A stretch of DNA of 64,000 nucleotides. It comes from Geobacter sp. FeAm09 (GTDB taxonomy: Bacteria; Desulfobacterota; Desulfuromonadia; Geobacterales; Pseudopelobacteraceae). Location of the stretch: contig NZ_CP042466.1 of NCBI RefSeq assembly GCF_008330225.1, forward strand, positions 558,001 to 622,000, written 5' to 3'. The notes below the pieces were generated by a model. It saw nothing but the letters and a program-made list of their open reading frames with translations, had not been told where the DNA came from and made no database searches. The position numbers and the translations under genes are program-made. Positions 498 to 36,065 of this stretch are shown in pieces (within the stretch, counting starts at the first letter, position 1; every line of letters starts with the position of its first letter).

Positions 498-1343
498 TTA
501 AAATTCCGCCGGCATGGCCTTGACCTGTTTCGCCGTGAACACCGGGCCATCCTTGCAGACATAAACATTGCCCACGTTGCAGCGGCCGCATTTGCCCAGG
601 CCGCATTTCATGCGGTTCTCCAGGGTCGTGTAGACCTGCTCGTCCGTAAAACCCAGCCGCTCCAGCACCGGCAGGGTGAATTTGATCATGATCGGCGGAC
701 CGCATACCAGAGCGATGGTGTTCTCCGCGCCGGGGGCTGTTTCTTCCAGGATGGTCGGCACGAAACCGACCCTGCCGTCCCAATCCGGTCCGTTGCCCCC
801 CGGATCCACGGTCTTTACCAACCGCACGTCTGCCCGGTCTTGCCATTCCTGCAGTTCCCGCTTGTAGACCAGGTCTGCCTCGGTGCGGGCCCCGTAGACG
901 ATGGTGATGTCGCCAAACTTGTCGCGCCAGTCCAGGCAGTTCCAGATCAGGGTGCGCAGCGGCGGCAGGGCGATGCCCCCCGCCACGAAGACCAGGTTTT
1001 TGCCGAAGAACTCCTCGATGGGGAAGGAGTTGCCGTAGGGACCGCGCACCCCCATGGTGTCCCCCGGCTCCAGGCGCCGCAGGGCCTCGGTCACGCGGCC
1101 CACGGCGCGAAAACAGCACTCGATGGAGCCGGTGCGGGTCGGCGAAGAGGCGATGCAGAAGGTGGATTCGCCGGCGCCGAAGGCGGAGTACTCGGCAAAC
1201 TGCCCGGCACGAAAGGTGAAACCGTCCCTCAGCGCCTCGTCCTGGAAGACCAGCCGCAGGGTGCGCACGTCCGGCGTCTCGTCGATGACCTCGGCAACGG
1301 TGGCCAGGTGGGGGAGGTAGATGTTCTTGTTGTGATCACACAT
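498..1343 (-). CDS. floxA: FloxA-like FAD/NAD(P)H-binding oxidoreductase subunit
   Basis: 281 residues of the ferredoxin-reductase/AsrB/HydG family: an N-terminal FAD-binding beta-barrel (FTFRAGQFAEYSAFG, then GPYGNSFP), an NAD-binding Rossmann half (LVFVAGGIALPPLRTL; ALVCGPPIMIKF) and a C-terminal cysteine cluster MKCGLGKCGRCNVG that binds a [2Fe-2S] centre in relatives. It is predicted to oxidise NADH and pass electrons into the Hdr–Flox complex in the cytoplasm. It is the last gene of the minus-strand hdrCBA-flox operon, the mirror of the known floxABCD-hdrABC order. The start at 1343 (MCDHNKN) is chosen because upstream in-frame codons fall inside a repeat element and encode a low-complexity VSLCLCVSV string. 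The subunit assignment rests on order and domain content. Confidence 0.8.
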   Translation of the reverse strand: MCDHNKNIYLPHLATVAEVIDETPDVRTLRLVFQDEALRDGFTFRAGQFAEYSAFGAGESTFCIASSPTRTGSIECCFRAVGRVTEALRRLEPGDTMGVRGPYGNSFPIEEFFGKNLVFVAGGIALPPLRTLIWNCLDWRDKFGDITIVYGARTEADLVYKRELQEWQDRADVRLVKTVDPGGNGPDWDGRVGFVPTILEETAPGAENTIALVCGPPIMIKFTLPVLERLGFTDEQVYTTLENRMKCGLGKCGRCNVGNVYVCKDGPVFTAKQVKAMPAEF

Positions 1344-1358
1344 TTCTAAAAACCTTTT

Positions 1359-1520
1359 TGCCACAGAGACACAGAGACACAGAGACACAGAGGAAAAACT
1401 AGAGAAAAACCAGGCAGCAAACAATCTTTTGGGTTAAACCAAAGGCACACAATCTTCTTTGGGGGGAAACCATAAGCCTTTGTGTTTTGATTTTCTCCGT
1501 GTCTCTGTGTCTCCGTGGCA
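1359..1520. repeat. CACAGAG palindromic repeat, copy 1
   Basis: A 162-bp imperfect palindrome. The left arm starts TGCCACAGAGACACAG and the right arm ends CTGTGTCTCCGTGGCA; the centre is AT-rich and variable. It fills the gap between the 119-residue gene and floxA, leaving only the ribosome-binding region of floxA outside. Confidence 0.85.
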
Positions 1521-1531
1521 GATTATGAAGT

Positions 1532-1891
1532 TTATAATTTTGCAGCCATCTCGGTAAAGGCCTGGGCCTTGACCTTCAACTCCACCGGCCGGTTGTTGTC
1601 GCCGAAGCCGATGGTGATGACGCCTCCCACCAGTTGATGCTCCATCTCGGCGAACAGGATCGCCGCCGGGTCCACCAGCAGGTTGCCGGACTGGATGAAC
1701 CCCCGCTCCCGGAGCGCCGCCACGAACGCCTCCTGCTCGACCTTGGACACCTTCTTGAAGAGCTGCTTCCTGACCACCGGGCCGCCGAACCACACATCCA
1801 TCATGCGGGTGGTGTCCGACACCAGAGGGTTGTCCTCCGGGGTGGTCATCTGGGCGGCGATGACGTGCCGTATATTGATGAATCGTTCCAT
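1532..1891 (-). CDS. Conserved hypothetical protein in the hdr-flox operon
   Basis: 119 residues, soluble, no signal peptide or membrane segment and no cysteine, so it is not an Fe-S protein. The sequence is rich in Val, Phe and Met with a mixed alpha/beta look (FGGPVVRKQLFKKV; GGVITIGFGDNNRPVELK). I do not recognise a family. It sits between floxB and floxA, with which it must be co-transcribed, so it may be an assembly factor or a small accessory subunit. The ATG at 1891 is the only reasonable start. The 42-base gap to floxB contains a short remnant of the CACAGAG repeat. Confidence 0.65.
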   Translation of the reverse strand: MERFINIRHVIAAQMTTPEDNPLVSDTTRMMDVWFGGPVVRKQLFKKVSKVEQEAFVAALRERGFIQSGNLLVDPAAILFAEMEHQLVGGVITIGFGDNNRPVELKVKAQAFTEMAAKL

Positions 1892-1908
1892 GTAAGACCT
1901 CGTTTTGG

Positions 1909-1919
1909 CCTCTGTGGCA
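1909..1919. repeat. Remnant of the CACAGAG repeat
   Basis: CCTCTGTGGCA matches the outer end of the right arm of the palindromic repeats seen in the other gaps of this operon. The rest of the element is missing, so this looks like a deletion remnant in the gap upstream of the 119-residue gene. Confidence 0.5.
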
Positions 1920-1933
1920 AATATGGCGTTCTT

Positions 1934-2938
1934 TTATTTCTTGCTTATCTCGGAAACAATCGCAGCGATATCGATCCCCACCGGGCAGAAGCGGATGCAT
2001 CTGCCGCAGCCGGTGCACAGGGTCTGGCCGAACTTGTCGTCGTAGTACTTGAACTTGTGCATGATGCGGTTGCGGTAACGCTTGGGCTGGAGGTCGCGCG
2101 GGTTGTGGCCCGAGGCGTGGTGGGTGAATTTCCAGAAACCGCAGGCGTCCCAGCTCTTGCGGCGTTTGCCCGCTTTCTCGGTCCCCTCGTCCACGATGTC
2201 GAAGCAGTGGCAGGCCGGGCAGAGGAAGGCGCAGGCCCCGCAGCCGACGCAGCGCACGGCGATGCTGTCCCAGGCCGGGTCCTCGAAATGGTCGTCCAGC
2301 CACGCCTTGACCTTTTTCAGGTCGAACTTTTCCGTCTGCGGTTCGGCCAGGGGGAGCGCCGGTGCGCCGCTCGGTTCACCGAACAGTTCCTTGTGGCTGT
2401 TGACCAGGGTCTCTCCTTTTTCCGTGAAGGTCTCGCAGGCGTAACCGCCCCCTTCCACCGGGGTCAGGAACAGGTCGCTCCCCTTGGGATCGGCCGGGGA
2501 GAGCCCCACGGCCGTGCAGAAACAGGCGTCGTCGGCCTGCGTGCAGGCCAGGCCGACGATGGTGGTCTTTTGGCGGCGTTCCAGGAAAAACTCGTCCTGG
2601 TAATCCCAGGAGAACACGGCGTCCAGTACCGGGACCGCAGCGGCGTCGCAGGGACGTACCCCTACCAGCACCGTTTCCGGGAAACGTGCGGGGTTTACAT
2701 CGGTCAGGGTGACCTGCTGCCCCTCCTTGCCGTAGGACATGATGTCCTCGCAGACCGGGAAAAAGGTCTCCTTGGCCGAGCGGCGGGGCAACTGGCCGAG
2801 CACGATCCCGGCGGAATCCGCAAACGGCCCGTAGAGCGGTGTGCCGGCCTCCATGCGCGGCGCCACGACACGCTTGCCGTCGGCGATCAACTTGTCCAGC
2901 AGGTGGCCCAGGTTTTGTTGTGAGATGAATTTCTGCAT
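1934..2938 (-). CDS. floxB: FloxB-like [4Fe-4S] dicluster subunit (AsrA/HydB-type)
   Basis: 334 residues. The C-terminal half carries two ferredoxin-type clusters: CVGCGACAFLCPACHCFD and CTGCGRCIRFCPVGID, each followed by Pro. The N-terminal two thirds resembles the AsrA/sulfhydrogenase beta subunit family, including the VGVRPCDAAAVPVLD segment typical of that group. It is predicted to carry electrons between the flavin subunit FloxA and the FloxC/D–Hdr part of the complex. The start at 2938 (MQKFISQQ) is preferred; the longer reading runs into the adjacent repeat. The letter B is inferred from gene order mirroring floxABCD-hdrABC, so B and C could be exchanged. Confidence 0.75.
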   Translation of the reverse strand: MQKFISQQNLGHLLDKLIADGKRVVAPRMEAGTPLYGPFADSAGIVLGQLPRRSAKETFFPVCEDIMSYGKEGQQVTLTDVNPARFPETVLVGVRPCDAAAVPVLDAVFSWDYQDEFFLERRQKTTIVGLACTQADDACFCTAVGLSPADPKGSDLFLTPVEGGGYACETFTEKGETLVNSHKELFGEPSGAPALPLAEPQTEKFDLKKVKAWLDDHFEDPAWDSIAVRCVGCGACAFLCPACHCFDIVDEGTEKAGKRRKSWDACGFWKFTHHASGHNPRDLQPKRYRNRIMHKFKYYDDKFGQTLCTGCGRCIRFCPVGIDIAAIVSEISKK

Positions 2939-2956
2939 GTTAACACCTTTAAAATC

Positions 2957-3103
2957 TGCCACAGAGACACAGAGACACAGAGGAAAACAAAGAGAGAAAA
3001 CCAAAACATTTTCAGGGAAAACCAAAGTCTGAAAGATTCGTTGTGTGTAACCCACAATAACTTTGTTTTTTGCTTTTCTCTGCGCCTCTGTGGCTCCGTG
3101 GCA
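2957..3103. repeat. CACAGAG palindromic repeat, copy 2
   Basis: 147 bp between floxC and floxB. Left arm TGCCACAGAGACACAGAG, right arm ending TCTGTGGCTCCGTGGCA. The right arm shows an internal GCCTCTGTGGC variant of the same heptad theme. Confidence 0.85.
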
Positions 3104-3108
3104 AATAA

Positions 3109-4029
3109 TTATTTTATAAAACTCTGGTCATCCTTCTCGTCGTACATCGCCAGCGGTCCTTTTTCCCGCACCTGGAACCCGGCCTCGTAGTCGTACAACT
3201 CTTTCAGCTCCTTGGCCATCTTGCGGTTCAAGAGATTGAGCGGGATGTCCATGGGGCAGACGCGTTCGCACTCGGCGCAGCCGGCGCAGCGACCGGCCAG
3301 GTGCATGGCCCGGACGATGTGCCAGGCCGTGTTGCCGGCCGGGCGTGGGGTGGTCTCCACCATCTGGGGCTTGTTGCGGTCGCACAGGCACTGCTCGCAG
3401 AAGCAGAACGGGCAGACCTGGCGGCAGGCGTAGCATTTGATGCATTTCTTGAACTGCTCTTTCCAGTAGGCCCAGCGCTCGGCCGGGGTCATGGCCTCCA
3501 GGCGGGCGATCTCGGCACGGTACTTTCCCGCCAACTCTGGGGTGGCCGGCTGCCGATCCGGCACGAAGTCGCATTCCTGCGGCAGGTGGGCATCACATTC
3601 GCGGCACTTGGGGGCGATGGTGTCGCCGGTCAGCTCCTGGGCGGGCTGGGCCGTGGAGGCCAGCACCCCGGCGCAGGGGACGCCGATCAGGTACAATTCC
3701 TCCCGCTTCAGTTGCGATTCCCCCATCAGTCCCACCAACGCCTTCAGGTCGCACCCCTTGACCACGATGCCGATCTTGCCGGTCTTGGGAATTTCCTTCT
3801 TGGCCTTGGTCAGGTAGACAGCCAGGTTGTTGACGCAGGCGGCGGAGAAGATCAACTCTTCCGCCCGTACAGCATCGGTGATGACCACCGGCTGGGCAGA
3901 GCCTTTGCGCCGGGCGGCGGCATACCCCACAACGGCGGAGACGTGGCCTTCCGACAGGATACGTCGCGCCTCGCCCTGGATGGCCTCGGTAATGGCGGCG
4001 TAGATGGATGTGTCGATGGTGTTTGTCAT
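3109..4029 (-). CDS. floxC: FloxC-like [4Fe-4S] subunit with FrhB-like N-terminal part
   Basis: 306 residues. The first half contains GIVVKGCDLKALVGL, a segment shared with the FrhB/coenzyme F420 hydrogenase beta family and related electron-transfer subunits. The second half has cysteine clusters CIKCYACRQVCPFCFC and CAGCAECERVCPMDIP, expected to hold two [4Fe-4S] centres, plus extra cysteines (CRECDAHLPQEC, CEQCLC) that could bind further metal. A cytoplasmic electron-relay subunit of the Hdr–Flox complex is the likely role. It lies between floxD and floxB with a palindromic repeat on each side. The assignment as FloxC comes from order and domain content. Confidence 0.75.
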   Translation of the reverse strand: MTNTIDTSIYAAITEAIQGEARRILSEGHVSAVVGYAAARRKGSAQPVVITDAVRAEELIFSAACVNNLAVYLTKAKKEIPKTGKIGIVVKGCDLKALVGLMGESQLKREELYLIGVPCAGVLASTAQPAQELTGDTIAPKCRECDAHLPQECDFVPDRQPATPELAGKYRAEIARLEAMTPAERWAYWKEQFKKCIKCYACRQVCPFCFCEQCLCDRNKPQMVETTPRPAGNTAWHIVRAMHLAGRCAGCAECERVCPMDIPLNLLNRKMAKELKELYDYEAGFQVREKGPLAMYDEKDDQSFIK

Positions 4030-4054
4030 ATAAAACCCTTAAAATCTTGAAATC

Positions 4055-4215
4055 TGCCACAGAGACACAGAGGAAAAACAAAGAGAGAAAACCAACCACT
4101 ATTTGAGTAAAGCCAAACGCCAAAACAGTTGCGAGGTATAATTCTTCAGAGCCTTTTGTTTTCCCTTCTTGTTTCTCGTCTTTGAATTTCTCCGTGTCTC
4201 TGTGTCTCCGTGGCA
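4055..4215. repeat. CACAGAG palindromic repeat, copy 3
   Basis: 161 bp between floxD and floxC, beginning TGCCACAGAGACACAGAGG and ending GTGTCTCTGTGTCTCCGTGGCA in two blocks. Same ends and orientation symmetry as copies 1 and 2. Confidence 0.85.
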
Positions 4216-4225
4216 GATGTTGATT

Positions 4226-4723
4226 TTAAATAGAATCGTACGCCTCTTGCAATTCCGGTGTATCGATAGCCCCGGACCACTGTTCCTCCAGGGCCAGTTC
4301 CTTGAACTCCTGCATCGGCCCCATGCCCCTGACCCGCTCGGTCAGGTCGGTGACCATCTCCACCCATTTGCCCCCTTCGGCGGCCGAAACCCAGGAAAAT
4401 TGGAGGCGGCCCAGATCGACCCCCACGAACTCCAGAAGCTTCCTGAAGGCGGCGAACCTGCGGCGGGCGTGGAAGTTGCCGGCGATGTAGTGGCAGTCCC
4501 CCGGGTGGCAGCCGGACACCAGGACGCCGTCGGCCCCCTGCTGGAAGGCCTTGAGGATGAAGACCGGGTCGATGCGTCCGGTGCAGGGGAACTTGAGCAC
4601 CCGTACGTTGGCCGGATACTGCAGGCGGCTGGTGCCGGCCAGGTCGGCCCCGGCATAGGTGCACCAGGTGCAGACAAAGGCAATGATCTTCGGTTCGAAG
4701 GCGTGTTTTTCTTTATGGTGCAT
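4226..4723 (-). CDS. floxD: MvhD/FloxD-type iron-sulfur subunit
   Basis: 165 residues of the MvhD family, the small Fe-S protein that docks hydrogenase or Flox modules onto HdrA. The family signature is clear: FVCTWCTYAGADLAG near the N-terminus, VRVLKFPCTGRIDP, and GVLVSGCHPGDCHYIAGN. These cysteines bind a [2Fe-2S] cluster in MvhD. The gene lies directly after hdrA in transcription order, as in other Hdr–Flox clusters. The ATG at 4723 (MHHKEKH) is chosen over an upstream in-frame start that would add residues overlapping the neighbouring repeat. Confidence 0.88.
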   Translation of the reverse strand: MHHKEKHAFEPKIIAFVCTWCTYAGADLAGTSRLQYPANVRVLKFPCTGRIDPVFILKAFQQGADGVLVSGCHPGDCHYIAGNFHARRRFAAFRKLLEFVGVDLGRLQFSWVSAAEGGKWVEMVTDLTERVRGMGPMQEFKELALEEQWSGAIDTPELQEAYDSI

Positions 4724-4748
4724 TGAGAACTTCCTTCTTAAAGCTCGA

Positions 4749-4882
4749 ACCACGGAGGACACAGAGGATCACGGAGGAAAGACAAAATCAAAGTCCTGAA
4801 TATTTGGGGGTGAACCGAAAACAATTCGATTTGTTTTCGCCTTCCTCCGGTTTCCTCTGTGTCCCTCCGTGTCCTCCGTGGT
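4749..4882. repeat. CACAGAG-type palindromic repeat, copy 4 (divergent)
   Basis: 134 bp between hdrA and floxD. This copy uses ACCACGGAGGACACAGAGG at the left and CGTGTCCTCCGTGGT at the right: same layout, but with GGAGGACAC replacing GAGACAC, so it is a diverged subfamily member. Confidence 0.8.
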
Positions 4883-4894
4883 GAATAATAATTT

Positions 4895-6892
4895 TTAAAG
4901 CGCTTCTATCATAGCCACGATCTGCTCATCGGTATACCCGTCCAACTCCACGCTCTTGGATGGGCAGGTGGCCTGGCAGGTGCCGCAGCCGCCGCATACG
5001 CCGGGATTGACGTAGGCCACCACCTTGACCAGGTTGCCCTGGCGGTCGCGGATCTCCTTCTCCTCCACTGCGCCGTAGGGGCAGACCTTCTGGCAGTAGA
5101 AGCACCCCACGCAGCCGGCCTCCCGCACTCGGGCCACGATCGGCTCCCGCTCCAGCTTGTCCTTGGCAAAGAGGGTCATGACCTTGGCCGCGGCGGCCGA
5201 GGCCTGGCTGACGGTGTCGGGGATATCCTTGGGCCCCTGGCAGGCGCCGGCCAGGTAGATGCCGGCCGTGGCGCACTCCACCGGGCGCAGCTTGGCGTGG
5301 GCCTCGGAATAGAAGTGATACTTGTCGTAGGAGATGCCCAGCTTCTGGGCAAGGGTGTCGGCCCCCTTCTGGGGCTGCACGGCCGTAGCCAGCACCACCA
5401 TGTCGGCCTCGATCTCCACCTGCACCCCCACGGCGATATCGCTCCCCATGACCACGATCTTGTCCCCCTTCTGGTAGAGACGGGAGACCATGCCCCTGAT
5501 GTAGACCGCTTCTTCCTCCTCGATGGAGCGGCGCCAGAATTCGTCATAACTCTTGCCCGGCGTACGGGCATCCATGAAGAAGACGTAGGCTTGGCCGTCG
5601 TGTACCTTGTGGTGGTAGAGCATGGTGTGCTTGGCGGTGTACATGCAGCAGATCTTGGAACAGTAGGAGATACCCTTTTCCCGGGCCCGGGAGCCGACGC
5701 ACTGGATGAAGACGATCTGCTTCGGTTCCCTGCCGTCGGAAGGGCGGAGGATCTTGCCGCCGGTGGGCCCGGAGGCGGAGGCCAGGCGTTCGAAGGTCAT
5801 ACCGTCGATCACGTCCGGAATCTTGCCGTGGCCGAATTCTCCGTACCCCTTGATGGCGGAGCCCTTGGGCTTCTCCTCGATGGAGTAGAGATCGAAGCCG
5901 GTGGCGACCACGATAGCGCCCACCGGTTCCACGATCAACCGGTCTTCCTGCTCGTAATCCACGGCGCCGGGGCCGCACACCTTCTGGCAGACCCCGCACT
6001 TGCCGGTCTTGAACTTGGTGCAGTTCTCCCGGTCGATAACCGGCGTGTTGGGCACCGCCTGGGGGAAGGGTACGTAGATGGCCGGGCGCATGCCCAGGTT
6101 CCGGTCGAAGGTGTTGGGGATCTTCTTCTGGGGGCATTTGGTCATGCAGATCCCGCAGCCGGTGCACTTGTCCTCGTCCACCGACCGGGCCTTCCGGCGC
6201 ACCGTGACCTGGAAATTGCCGATGTACCCCTCCACCTGTTCGATCTCGGCATAGGTGTAGAGCGTGATCTTGGGGTGGTTCGCCACGTCCACCATCTTGG
6301 GGGTCATGATGCACTGGGAGCAGTCCAGGGTCGGGAAGGTTTCGGAGAGCTGGGCCATGTGGCCGCCGATGGAGGGTTCCCGCTCCACCAGCACCACCTC
6401 GTGGCCGGCGTCGGCGATGTCCAGTGCCGCCTGGATGCCGGCGATGCCGCCGCCGATGACCAGGGATCGTTTGGTGACCGGCACGGTGATGGTGGGGAGC
6501 ACGCGGTTCTTCTTGACCCGCTCCACCATCATGCCCACGATCTCGATGGCCTTGGCCGTGGCCTCGTCCCGGTCCTCGTGGACCCAGGAACAGTGTTCGC
6601 GGATGTTGGCCATCTCGCACAGGAAGGGGTTCAGCCCGGCGGATTCCACCGCCTTGCGGAAGGTTTTCTCGTGCATGCGGGGCGAGCAGGCCGCCACCAC
6701 CACGTGGGAGAGCCGCTGTTCCTGGATGGCCTTTTTCAGGAGCCCTTGACCGGGGTCGGAGCACATGTATTTGTAATCGGTGGAAAAGGCCACGCCGGGC
6801 AGTGTGCCGACCTGGGCCGCGACCCGCTCCACATCCACGGTCCGGGAGATGTTTTCACCGCAATGGCAGATAAATACGCCTATTCTGGACAT
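4895..6892 (-). CDS. hdrA: Heterodisulfide reductase subunit A homologue
   Basis: 665 residues, the electron-bifurcating flavoprotein subunit. It begins with GVFICHCGENI, has the FAD-binding GGGIAGIQAALDIADAGHEV (about residues 148–167) followed by the HdrA hallmark LVEREPSIGGHMAQL and TFPTLDCSQC, a central ferredoxin-like pair (CTGCGICMTKCPQKKIP; CGVCQKVCGPGAVD) and a C-terminal pair (CVGCFYCQKVCPYGAV; CGGCGTCQATCPSKSV). In characterised Hdr complexes this flavin splits electrons between ferredoxin and a disulfide-type acceptor handled by HdrBC. Here NADH via Flox is the probable donor. Located in the cytoplasm; the physiological acceptor (a DsrC-like or other thiol) cannot be read from this window. 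Confidence 0.93.
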   Translation of the reverse strand: MSRIGVFICHCGENISRTVDVERVAAQVGTLPGVAFSTDYKYMCSDPGQGLLKKAIQEQRLSHVVVAACSPRMHEKTFRKAVESAGLNPFLCEMANIREHCSWVHEDRDEATAKAIEIVGMMVERVKKNRVLPTITVPVTKRSLVIGGGIAGIQAALDIADAGHEVVLVEREPSIGGHMAQLSETFPTLDCSQCIMTPKMVDVANHPKITLYTYAEIEQVEGYIGNFQVTVRRKARSVDEDKCTGCGICMTKCPQKKIPNTFDRNLGMRPAIYVPFPQAVPNTPVIDRENCTKFKTGKCGVCQKVCGPGAVDYEQEDRLIVEPVGAIVVATGFDLYSIEEKPKGSAIKGYGEFGHGKIPDVIDGMTFERLASASGPTGGKILRPSDGREPKQIVFIQCVGSRAREKGISYCSKICCMYTAKHTMLYHHKVHDGQAYVFFMDARTPGKSYDEFWRRSIEEEEAVYIRGMVSRLYQKGDKIVVMGSDIAVGVQVEIEADMVVLATAVQPQKGADTLAQKLGISYDKYHFYSEAHAKLRPVECATAGIYLAGACQGPKDIPDTVSQASAAAAKVMTLFAKDKLEREPIVARVREAGCVGCFYCQKVCPYGAVEEKEIRDRQGNLVKVVAYVNPGVCGGCGTCQATCPSKSVELDGYTDEQIVAMIEAL

Positions 6893-6920
6893 CGATGATT
6901 CCTTTTACCATAAAGGCTTT

Positions 6921-7073
6921 TGCCACAGAGACACGGAGACACAGAGAAAGGCAGGAGAAAATCAAAATCCTTTTGTTGGGAAAAACGAAGGCTGAAAAAC
7001 TCTATTAAGCATTAACCCTAAAGCCTCTCGTTTTTGCTCTTGACGTTCTCCGTGTCTCTGTGTCTCTGTGGCA
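6921..7073. repeat. CACAGAG palindromic repeat, copy 5
   Basis: 153 bp between hdrB and hdrA. Left TGCCACAGAGACACGGAG, right TGTCTCTGTGTCTCTGTGGCA. The hdrA ribosome-binding region (AAAAGGAATC) lies just outside the left end. Confidence 0.85.
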
Positions 7074-7077
7074 GATT

Positions 7078-7965
7078 TTATAAAAGCTGTTTTTCCTTCA
7101 AAAGCGGCATGGGGTTGACGATCAGGGCATCCAGGCCGAGCTTGTCCGCGCCCAGGCCGGTGGCCAGGCCCACCAGTTGGGTGATGTAGAAGACCGGCAT
7201 GGCGTACCGGGTGTCGTAGACCCCCTCGATCTCCTCCTGGCGGATATCCAGGTTGCCGTGGCATAGGGGGCAGGCTACCATGATGCAGTCGGCGCCGGCC
7301 TCCTTGGCCGAATCCAGGATGGCGTGGGAGAGTTGGATGACCACGCCGGGGCGCGACAGGGTGAAGTTGGCGCCGCAGCACTCCAGGCGGTGGCTCCAGG
7401 CTACGGTTTCGGCCCCCACCGCTTTCAAGACGTCCTCCATGATGGTCGGCGCCTCGACGCAATCCAGGTTCGGCACGTCGGTGGGCCGGGTCAGGAGGCA
7501 GCCGTAGTAGCAGGCCACCTTGAGGCCTGCGAGCGGCTTGGTGACGGCCTGTTTCAGGCGATCCAGCCCCAGGTCGCGGGCCAGGATGTCCAGCAGGTGC
7601 TTGACGTTGCCCTTCATGGGCACCGGGGCGTCAATGGCCTTTTCCACCTGCTTGCGTTTGACGTCGTTTTCCGAGAGGACATGCTGGGTGGTCTTGAGCC
7701 GTGAGAAACAGGCGGCGCAGGCGACCGCCAGGTCTCCCCCCACCTTTTCCGCCAGTTCCATGTTTTTGGCGCACAGGGAGAGGGAGAGCAATTCGTCCAC
7801 GTTGTGGGCCGGGGTGGCGCCGCAGCAAAACCAGTCCGGCACCTCGGTCAGGCCGATGCCGAGCTTTCTGAACAGTTCCCGGGTGGAAAGGTCGTATTCG
7901 CCGGCCGAAGCATGGAGGGAACAGCCGGGGTAGTAGGCGTAGCTGAGGGTGTTCCTGGAGGTCAC
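7078..7965 (-). CDS. hdrB: Heterodisulfide reductase subunit B homologue
   Basis: 295 residues with the two CCG domains that hold the non-cubane [4Fe-4S] clusters at the disulfide-reducing site. N-terminal domain: YYPGCSLH, then WFCCGATPAHN and ACAACFSRL. C-terminal domain: CYYGCLLTRP, then LECCGANFTL and VACPLCHGNLD. It partners HdrC (4-bp overlapping start, translational coupling) and HdrA. In Desulfuromonadales without methanogenesis the substrate is not CoM-S-S-CoB; another disulfide or thiol carrier is assumed. No membrane segment is visible. Confidence 0.92.
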   Translation of the reverse strand: MTSRNTLSYAYYPGCSLHASAGEYDLSTRELFRKLGIGLTEVPDWFCCGATPAHNVDELLSLSLCAKNMELAEKVGGDLAVACAACFSRLKTTQHVLSENDVKRKQVEKAIDAPVPMKGNVKHLLDILARDLGLDRLKQAVTKPLAGLKVACYYGCLLTRPTDVPNLDCVEAPTIMEDVLKAVGAETVAWSHRLECCGANFTLSRPGVVIQLSHAILDSAKEAGADCIMVACPLCHGNLDIRQEEIEGVYDTRYAMPVFYITQLVGLATGLGADKLGLDALIVNPMPLLKEKQLL

Positions 7966-8546
7966 AGGGCCTCCCCGTTCCTACGCATCTCCTCGATGCG
8001 GCCGAAGATCTTTTCGATCTCGGTCATGTTCTTGTTTTTCTGATGGAACATCTTGAGTTTGCCCTTGGTGATCAGTTTGGGGCCCAGCATCAGATCCTTC
8101 AGAAACTGGCCGGATTTGACGTTGAACACGGCGGCCAGGCGCATCTCGTACTGGCGGCCGTAGGTGCGGATGTTCTGCAGGAAGAGCCGGTTGGCCAACT
8201 GCACGTAACTCTCCTTGGAGGGCCCTTCGGCATCCCAGGAGAGTTTGCGCAGGGCATCCATGATGGAAGCCAGGTGCACCTTGTTGGGGCAGCGGGTGGA
8301 GCAGGTTTCGCAGGATGCGCAGTACCAGATGGAGCGGCCGGCCAAGATGCGTTGCCACTGGCCGAGCTGGAGCAGTCGCACGACCCGGTTGGGGGGGTGT
8401 TCCATGAAAGTGGCCATGGGGCAGCCGGCCGAACACTTGCCGCACTGGAAGCAGCGCCGCACCGAGGTCCCTGAAAGGGCTTCGACCTTGCGGACGAAGT
8501 CAACATCCATGGTCTCGGTCGAAAGAAGCATCTTCTTCTTTTTCAC
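7962..8546 (-). CDS. hdrC: Heterodisulfide reductase subunit C homologue
   Basis: 194 residues with two [4Fe-4S] motifs: CFQCGKCSAGCPMA and CASCETCSTRCPNKV, the standard HdrC pattern relaying electrons from HdrA to HdrB. There are no transmembrane helices, which separates it from the membrane HdrE/DsrM types. It is the first gene of the operon. The start is a GTG at 8546 giving a Lys-rich N-terminus; ATG codons 5 and 13 residues later are alternatives. The leader upstream contains a hairpin and an A/T palindrome (see those entries). Confidence 0.9.
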   Translation of the reverse strand: MKKKKMLLSTETMDVDFVRKVEALSGTSVRRCFQCGKCSAGCPMATFMEHPPNRVVRLLQLGQWQRILAGRSIWYCASCETCSTRCPNKVHLASIMDALRKLSWDAEGPSKESYVQLANRLFLQNIRTYGRQYEMRLAAVFNVKSGQFLKDLMLGPKLITKGKLKMFHQKNKNMTEIEKIFGRIEEMRRNGEAL

Positions 8547-17280: not shown

Positions 17281-17418
17281 CGCCGTCGAACAATACACAA
17301 AATTCTTTGGAAAAGACCCCTTTAGCGATTTAAATTGAGGAAGAGGAACGTGAGGATCAGGCTCAGGTCTACATTCGATATTAAATGAAAAATGTAGACG
17401 CGACCCTTTGAGTATCCC

Positions 17419-17503
17419 CGGGTGACAATGCCTGGCGGTAGCCTTTTCGACTTCCCGGATTCAAAGAACCGTTCGGTTGCTTTGTCGGCAAAGGTCTTAA
17501 TCA
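17419..17503 (-). pseudogene. Duplicate 5' fragment of higB
   Basis: 85 bases identical to 17035–17119, the first 28 codons of higB up to PPGIVTR, but without the last base of the ATG start codon. The fragment is followed by unrelated AT-rich sequence. It is a dead partial copy made by local duplication or recombination, of use mainly as evidence of rearrangement in this patch. Confidence 0.8.
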
Positions 17504-17517
17504 AGGAAGTTTACCTG

Positions 17518-17564
17518 GGGTCGGGTCTACATTCTACATTTTGTGTAGAATGTAGACCCGACCC
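17518..17564. repeat. REP-like perfect hairpin
   Basis: A 21-bp perfect stem with a 5-base loop; the left arm begins GGGTCGGGTCTACATTC. An imperfect relative with GTCTACATTC and GAATGTAGAC-like arms lies at about 17364–17407. Sequences of the GGGTC(G/A)GGTCTACAT kind are common next to REP-associated tyrosine (RAYT) transposases; a RAYT remnant exists at 54232–54412. Confidence 0.6.
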
Positions 17565-17632
17565 TCATGGATTTGCCTTTTTGTGGAGAATAGGGTTCTG
17601 GCCCTTGTGACTCTTATTGGATGTGAGGGAAA

Positions 17633-29230: not shown

Positions 29231-29252
29231 AGGGAGAAAACCTTATCTTCTG

Positions 29253-29364
29253 CCACAGAGGCGCAGAGACACAGAGGTACAGAGAGAAAAACAAAACCTT
29301 TTGGGTCGTTTCATATTGATTGTCTCGCTCCTGATTTTCTCCGTGCCTCTGTGGCTCCGTGGCA
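29253..29364. repeat. CACAGAG palindromic repeat, copy 6 (short)
   Basis: 112 bp in the cusB–cusA gap. TGCCACAGAGGCGCAGAGAC at the left, GCCTCTGTGGCTCCGTGGCA at the right. Same ends as the copies in the hdr-flox operon. Confidence 0.85.
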
Positions 29365-32325: not shown

Positions 32326-32476
32326 TTTCTCACAGAGCACACAGAGGCACAGAGAAAATCGTAAAGACTACCTCACGCAAAGCTCGCAAAGGCACAAAGA
32401 AAACCACAGAAATTTGGTTTACCCCTAAAATCAATCGGCCTTTGATGTTCTCCGTGCCTCTGTGAGCGGGTGAGAG
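32326..32476. repeat. CACAGAG palindromic repeat, variant ends, copy 7
   Basis: About 150 bp upstream of cusC and downstream of the response regulator. Arms are TCTCACAGAGCACACAG and TCCGTGCCTCTGTGAG, so the outer bases are TCTC rather than TGCC. The gap holds no gene besides this element and the cusC promoter. Confidence 0.75.
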
Positions 32477-35875: not shown

Positions 35876-36065
35876 TTTCTCACAGAGCTCACGGAGGCAC
35901 AGAGGACAACATAAAACAAAGATTTGAGATTTTAAAGCGTCAAAGGCAATTTCTCACAAAGGCTCAAAGAAAACCGCAATAATTTTGGTTTACCCCCAAA
36001 AGGCTCGGTTTTCGATGTTCTCTGTGCCTCTGTGAGCTTGAGCGAGCGAAAGTGAGCGGGTGAGA
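35876..36065. repeat. CACAGAG palindromic repeat, variant ends, copy 8
   Basis: 190 bp between the ABC ATPase gene and the sensor kinase gene. It carries TTCTCACAGAGCTCACGGAG at the left, a second TTCTCACAAAGGCTCAAAG inside, and CTCTGTGCCTCTGTGAGC with an added GAGCGAGCG stretch at the right. It looks like two elements merged or one enlarged. Confidence 0.7.

Follow-up and report, generated by a model that had tools for sequence, protein, structure and literature searches.

Intercistronic hairpins of a Geobacter hdr/flox operon as probable gene-less copies of a palindromic element that carries a GxxExxY gene

Why should nearly every gap between the cistrons of a single operon be occupied by a hairpin of one and the same family? 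The question is raised by an hdr/flox operon of Geobacter sp. FeAm09, situated in a stretch of 64,000 nucleotides (contig NZ_CP042466.1, positions 558,001 to 622,000; hereinafter the window). We compared the genome of the window (G000; 4.10 Mb) with five relatives of the same genus (G023, G051, G055, G100, and G117), and surveyed 117 genomes of its order, the Geobacterales, and 49 genomes from other groups; L-numbers denote individual loci. In our judgment, the operon hairpins are probably gene-less copies, akin to miniature inverted-repeat transposable elements (MITEs), of a palindromic mobile element whose full form carries a small gene of the GxxExxY family (PD-(D/E)XK nuclease superfamily). 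The mobility of this element is what we infer from sequence comparison; seen directly are ends shared by gene-bearing and gene-less copies, presence or absence of copies in close relatives, scars, nesting, and the linkage of gene and arms.

A preliminary description of this DNA had placed five near full-length copies of a palindromic repeat, each of 130–160 bp, and one remnant in all the operon gaps other than the overlapping hdrB/hdrC junction. All five were recovered at those positions (Table 1) with lengths of 134-162 bp, and six of the seven gaps are indeed occupied (five by near-palindromes and one by a scar), hdrB and hdrC overlapping. The remnant likewise held up: by eye, GGCCTCTGTGGCA corresponds to both outer termini of the full-length copy that occupies this gap in G055. 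The arms are built of tandem ~8-nt units (CCACAGAG ACACAGAG..., with the octamer (C)CACAGAGA...), the left arm being rich in purines and the right one complementary to it. The operon copies have a GC content of 0.43-0.50 and predicted folding energies of -46.9 to -72.9 kcal/mol on the plus strand and -58.0 to -69.5 on the other; the sister sub-family represented by copy 4 scores 55 bits (best strand) against the covariance model, versus 92-108 for the other four. The 39 paired copies that we inspected, drawn from the window and 18 further stretches of the G000 genome, span 83-243 bp, and a consensus of 27 copies has the ends ATCTGCCACAGAGACACAGAG...CTCTGTGTCTCTGTGGCAGAT around a variable centre. 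A single common centre motif was considered and rejected: 7-mers such as TTTACCC are enriched (5/39 centres; 0.20 expected), but the commonest 7-mers, AGAGAAA and GAGAAAA, reach 13/39. On inspection by eye, six copies have a further palindrome, of TTACATGGATGAACAGG type, in their interior and thus constitute elements within elements. We observed a second palindrome family (TTACATGGATGAACAGGATGAA...) nested in first-family copies at L092, L094, L095, L099, and L104, and a similar unit, ACAGGATTTACATG, flanking a GxxExxY gene at L210.

The link to a coding element comes from the sole match to the GxxExxY profile PF13366 in G000, the open reading frame (ORF) C1:1329518-1329853 (TIGR04256: 2.1e-36, 124.8 bits vs the curated cut-off of 35). 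This gene is enclosed by arms of the same family (matches at 1329384 on the plus and 1329919 on the minus strand) and is flanked by two genes that by eye resemble nuoF and nuoG. The left outer 32 nt of the gene-bearing copy are identical to those of 2/39 gene-less copies, and its right 35 nt are a single mismatch away from the nearest gene-less copy. The nuoF-nuoG gap measures 582 bp in G000 and 9 bp in G023, G051, and G117, with partial arm remnants in G055 and G100. A comparable arrangement exists in the hdr/flox operon itself: the single GxxExxY gene of G051 lies within a CCACAAAG palindrome in the mvhD-FeS gap, for which G117 has an empty site of 34 bp with flanks matching those of G051. 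Sequences bordering the copies tend toward inverted (ATC..GAT) rather than direct repetition. Operon hairpins also enclose GxxExxY ORFs in two of 20 relatives (L011 and L022, the latter ORF broken across frames), and in L017 a partial GxxExxY gene lies behind the left arm of CCACGAAG units after asrA, ending early and followed by insertion-sequence-like DNA.

Whether relatives lack the element in the operon gaps, a point raised in the preliminary description, is answered by a gap-by-gap comparison of the six same-genus operons, in which the same gaps are filled, empty (0-1 bp), or collapsed. For instance, hdrB and hdrA are 0-1 bp apart in G051 and G117 and separated by a filled gap in the four others; between asrA and the small-subunit gene, G000 has a scar of 42 bp, four relatives (G051, G055, G023, and G100) have a near full-length copy, and G117 has 64 bp that include a single arm. 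Centres of copies in the same gap (n=27 pairs) include two almost identical pairs (1.0 and 0.95) and two moderately similar ones (0.61 and 0.60), with a median of 0.24; centres from different gaps (n=183 pairs) have a median of 0.17, and one such pair, from different species, reaches 0.59. These similarities imply both inheritance and turnover of copies. The two highest values belong to G023/G051 in the asrA-flpD gap (1.0) and to G000/G051 in the FeS-asrA gap (0.95). Identical copies in place, which the preliminary description had held would argue against recent targeted spread, are therefore partly found, and since a few copies are common in place between species, not all of the spread is recent. 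A protein search for relatives of the operon returned 80 loci, and a wider survey of gaps covers 20 loci from same-group relatives. With a hairpin called at a score >=18 (0/120 in the coding control), their 116 gaps comprise 38 of <50 bp, 40 with a hairpin, and 38 others. Eight of the 40 hairpin gaps match the arm type of the window (<=2 mismatches per arm), the rest using other tandem units such as GACGCGGAT, GGTTAAG, AACGGAGC, or GTTCAAC.

Several of these gaps hold further features. An hdrB-hdrA gap of about 420-475 bp contains a response-regulator-like ORF (by eye) in L014 and L027, with similar gap lengths in L015, L016, and L017. The hdrA-mvhD gap of L017 (7996-8790) has an ORF, by eye similar to a TnpA of the IS200/IS605 type, enclosed in a palindrome of CAGAG type. 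A palindrome, GCGGCGTAGCGCTGCTACGCC, in L181 (G100, hdrA-mvhD) and L178 (G051, before flox) fits the motif GRCGTAGCGCTGCTACGCC given for a short RNA family of G. metallireducens in the available part of its description.

The family is by no means confined to the operon. The arm TGCCACAGAGACACAGAG, at <=2 mismatches, has 69+69 matches in the G000 genome as against 10+13 for the reversed control, and the covariance model (E<=0.01) yields 141 hits that reduce to at least 77 distinct sites, a lower bound in that 150 of the 661 candidates were scored. Were these 77 sites placed uniformly, and intergenic preference ignored, five sites in the 6 kb of this operon would have p=0.00045. The copies are thus clustered and the operon is their densest cluster, but it is not the only one: without it there are 15 more neighbour pairs <5 kb apart, which 0/5000 random draws reach. 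The earlier proposal of a targeted spread of a mobile element survives in part. Spread is well supported by empty and filled sites, the gene-bearing copy, nesting, and one pair of similar centres at different gaps. Targeting is not borne out, and a spread into this operon alone was rejected in view of the genome-wide distribution and of the other hairpin families that fill the same gaps in relatives; as these gaps are elsewhere short or occupied by such other families, they look permissive rather than chosen by the element. With regard to placement, 37/39 inspected copies are clear of every gene predicted by a simple caller. Setting aside the two that do, 29 lie between co-directional (two window copies so assigned by hand), five between convergent, and three between divergent genes. 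The co-directional excess is not significant relative to background gaps taken, uncorrected, from the simple caller (p=0.09). For 27/29 co-directional copies, the stop codon upstream is closer than the start codon that follows (median distances 15 vs 44 nt).

We then extended the analysis to the GxxExxY family as a whole, PF13366 being present in 98/117 genomes of the order and 25/49 genomes of other groups. For loci taken as the best-scoring and next in the list, not as a random draw, the two gene flanks were aligned with one as the reverse complement. Displaced intervals served as the control after mismatched loci had been dropped for that purpose because loci share arm families. At a score >=20 in 200-nt flanks, inverted arms were found at 23/29 loci of the order versus 0/174 displaced intervals, and outside it at 17/21 loci versus 1/126 (2/31 and 9/30 loci at contig ends being omitted). 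With 60 more loci and gene ends set by the profile (3/121 omitted), arms were recovered at 70/91 genes of the order and 22/27 elsewhere, and with 250-nt flanks at 71/89 loci (2/91 omitted). Protein identity correlates with arm similarity (r=0.49; reached in 0/2000 permutations), the mean arm similarity rising from 0.19 below 40% identity to 0.85 above 90%. Further, with the arm type read from anywhere within the 250-nt flanks, genomes in which an inspected GxxExxY gene adjoins a CCACRGAG-type arm carry far more such arms than others (16 vs 42 genomes; p=7e-7, with kinship ignored and the gene's own arms counted). A multiple alignment of 91 GxxExxY proteins showed as invariant the G-xx-E-xx-Y signature, a D, an ExK, and a QxxxY; we take the D...ExK...QxxxY pattern to be that of RecB/Cas4-like PD-(D/E)XK nucleases. 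A sequence search of solved structures with one GxxExxY protein recovered none at E<=1, and with one protein as query against viral contigs, 16 stretches matched a pattern and none was confirmed. In the portions of the open-licence PMC literature covered, the family is named only in passing and no function was found; judged by titles and abstract openings, none of these papers joins it to palindromic repeats, though reports elsewhere are possible.

The same architecture recurs with a second gene, IVP (PF05635), which we take to be the gene of 23S rRNA intervening sequences, presumably encoding a four-helix bundle. It was found in 45/58 genomes searched (39 above the family cut-off). The IVP genes of the order lie between inverted arms at 18/27 loci at a score of 20 and 23/27 at a score of 18, as against 1 and 3 of 162 displaced intervals (3/30 loci at contig ends omitted), and by eye their arms (L148-L177) are mostly 6-7-nt tandem units. 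That two unrelated proteins, GxxExxY and IVP, have one architecture is the most unexpected by-result of this work. A broader proposal, for which we see about even chances, is that there is a new class of mobile elements in several phyla, in which a GxxExxY nuclease gene would reside within the tandem-repeat palindrome that its product recognizes and mobilizes, with gene-less hairpins as its parasites and arm families changing with the nuclease; elements with IVP and 6-7-nt arms would form a parallel class.

Such elements might operate as follows. The GxxExxY protein would recognize the arms, probably when they form a hairpin or are exposed as a single strand in replication, and as a putative nuclease could cut the hairpin or its base, after which the hairpin would move or be copied, whether in cis or in trans. 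Copies inserted directly downstream of a stop codon, ahead of the following ribosome-binding site, would survive and might hence pile up between the cistrons of long operons, and loss by deletion between the arms would leave short scars.

Several observations weigh against the association of hairpins and gene as we read it. The GxxExxY gene of G000 is itself damaged, covering profile positions 3-98 of 117 in a frame that ends early. G023 and G055 have no PF13366 match at E<=0.001 despite 95 and 108 arm hits, from which it follows that the gene is not needed for persistence of the hairpins; its absence is as expected if these are relics, or else if hairpins are independent of the gene. The one clean pair of filled and empty sites (G051/G117) showed, by eye, no duplication of the target site. 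Arms are lacking at 21/91 GxxExxY genes of the order in the profile-bounded test, the displaced control for 250-nt flanks is not zero (5/232), and one arm pattern examined in the 49 genomes of other groups shows no clear enrichment in those that have GxxExxY (medians 2 vs 0.5; p=0.09). The co-variation of gene and arms would also follow from simple linkage. Some of this would suit an alternative that we regard as unlikely, namely that GxxExxY is a passenger or homing-type gene inserting into palindromes, which themselves arise and spread without it through template switching or replication slippage: arm hits number about 100 in each of two same-genus genomes that lack a GxxExxY match, and other genes, such as the 23S rRNA IVP and the IS200-type TnpA-like ORF of L017, are found in such hairpins too. 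Yet the gene-bearing and gene-less copies of G000 differ by 0-1 mismatches at their outer ends, the empty sites are without both gene and arms, and gene and arm type co-vary.

Alternatively, the hairpins could be selected regulatory structures of the operon, acting in mRNA processing or, as the preliminary description had also suggested, in differential stability of the cistrons. They are strong in prediction and sited between cistrons just after stop codons, and across 27 copies the arm pairs form in 95.7% of cells (2/500 shuffles reach this), with a covariation score reached by 5/500; this excess was not taken to prove a function in RNA, given that kinship among copies can produce it, and pair changes on both sides are about as frequent as in shuffles (3 vs 2.6). 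Moreover, the family is genome-wide, some same-genus operons have only 0-1, 20, 23, or 33-34 bp, or unrelated families, in the same gaps, and the two operons with 0-1 bp between hdrB and hdrA weaken the case for mRNA stability in particular. We accordingly hold a regulatory origin to be quite improbable. Also very improbable, in our view, is that a global DNA-bending protein such as integration host factor (IHF) or HU binds them as paired sites, as proposed for the class 2 sites of G. metallireducens: the 21 paired sites there, each with three tandem TCTCCGTS[Y], have a consensus that the right arm of the present family fits by eye, but in the available text such binding is only hypothesized, and it would leave the enclosed GxxExxY genes, empty sites, and differing arm families unexplained. 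Movement by a transposase of the RAYT (REP-associated tyrosine transposase; Y1) type, as with repetitive extragenic palindromic (REP) sequences and the hairpins termed REPINs, would account for the same class of architecture, dispersed extragenic hairpins, and G000 has two genes with the requisite domain (PF01797); neither, however, has family arms within 1500 nt on each side, and we rejected such a system for these arms and deem it extremely improbable as their source. One of the two (L274) has a different palindrome nearby. It is similar to the palindrome GGGTCGGGTCTACATTCTACA at 17356-17568 of the window, to which similar sequence is present on both sides of this Y1_Tnp gene (G000:C1:3107859-3108182); a RAYT/REP-like system may thus coexist in G000.

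Table 1. Hairpin copies in the window and genes of the hdr/flox operon
Feature	Coordinates	Strand	Location and remarks
Hairpin copy 1	1359..1520		small subunit (flpD-like)/flox gap, 162 bp
Collapsed remnant GGCCTCTGTGGCA	1907..1919		asrA-like/small-subunit gap
Hairpin copy 2	2957..3103		FeS protein/asrA-like gap, 147 bp; centre nearly identical to the same-gap copy of G051
Hairpin copy 3	4055..4215		mvhD/FeS protein gap, 161 bp
Hairpin copy 4	4749..4882		hdrA/mvhD gap, 134 bp; sister sub-family with ~9-nt units ACCACGGAGGACACAGAGG
Hairpin copy 5	6921..7073		hdrB/hdrA gap, 153 bp
Extra copy	29251..29364		outside operon, 114 bp
Extra copy	32337..32467		variant arms, second tandem repeat inside
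Extra copy	35887..36037		variant arms; not among the covariance-model hits listed
Flox-type FAD/NAD oxidoreductase subunit (hydrogenase gamma/AsrB-like)	498..1343	-	below curated cut-offs
Small subunit, labelled flpD-like	1532..1891	-	no NCBIfam match; kept in six genomes of the genus
AsrA / sulfhydrogenase-beta-like Fe-S subunit	1934..2938	-	
Fe-S subunit	3109..4029	-	
MvhD/VhuD-like subunit	4226..4723	-	
HdrA2-like subunit	4895..6892	-	
HdrB-like subunit	7078..7965	-	
HdrC-like subunit	7962..8546	-	4-bp overlap with hdrB in all six genus genomes compared

The operon is encoded on the minus strand in the order HdrC, HdrB, HdrA, MvhD-like, Fe-S, AsrA-like, small subunit, and flox-type oxidoreductase. 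The nearest named records for its HdrA come from Geobacter kin, e.g., Pelotalea chapellei (94% identity).

If the hairpins are indeed gene-less copies of GxxExxY-bearing elements, and those with IVP a parallel class, the two classes would account for a large part of the intergenic repeats that lack an explanation in Geobacter and its kin. They would offer one possible origin for the 'multicopy intergenic sequences' of Geobacter genomes, and the link to palindromic elements makes the role of the widespread GxxExxY family testable. A caution also follows: intercistronic hairpins should not by default be taken as operon regulation. Multicopy sequences are reported, in the text available, from 12% of the intergenic regions of G. 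bemidjiensis (PMC2996986) and are catalogued for P. carbinolicus (PMC3543383). Closest in description are the class 2 'predicted global regulator binding sites' of the G. metallireducens genome, 21 pairs of TCTCCGTS[Y] tandem triplets on opposite strands at variable distance (PMC2700814). Compared by description only, their published consensus indicates, by eye, the same kind of arm; they were read as regulator sites, and the available portion of that account mentions no GxxExxY gene, empty sites, or mobility (PMC2700814).

REPINs and their RAYTs are, as far as the accessible part of their description goes, likewise non-autonomous dispersed hairpins tied to one protein-coding partner (PMC3116915). 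That partner is a Y1 transposase, whereas here it would be a PD-(D/E)XK protein with its gene inside the hairpin and arms of tandem ~8-nt repeats. Although the present copies are multi-copy extragenic hairpins, as REPINs are, a search for a Y1 (HUH) partner beside matching repeats found none, and we therefore do not file the element as a REPIN. MITEs are short and non-coding, with terminal inverted repeats and a larger coding relative that has the same ends. The hairpins share all of this and are multi-copy, the coding relative with the same ends being present in the genome, its gene damaged. They depart from MITEs in being near-palindromic throughout; no target-site duplication was apparent by eye at the one clean site, and they go with no recognized transposase, and on account of the latter two points we do not file them as MITEs. 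The 23S rRNA intervening sequences with IVP also have inverted tandem-repeat arms, these being mostly of 6-7-nt units and the protein not a nuclease, whereas the gene within the full-length G000 copy belongs to the GxxExxY family (TIGR04256/PF13366, PDDEXK_3). We thus regard the element as a new relative of the MITE and REPIN kind, and as a member of neither.

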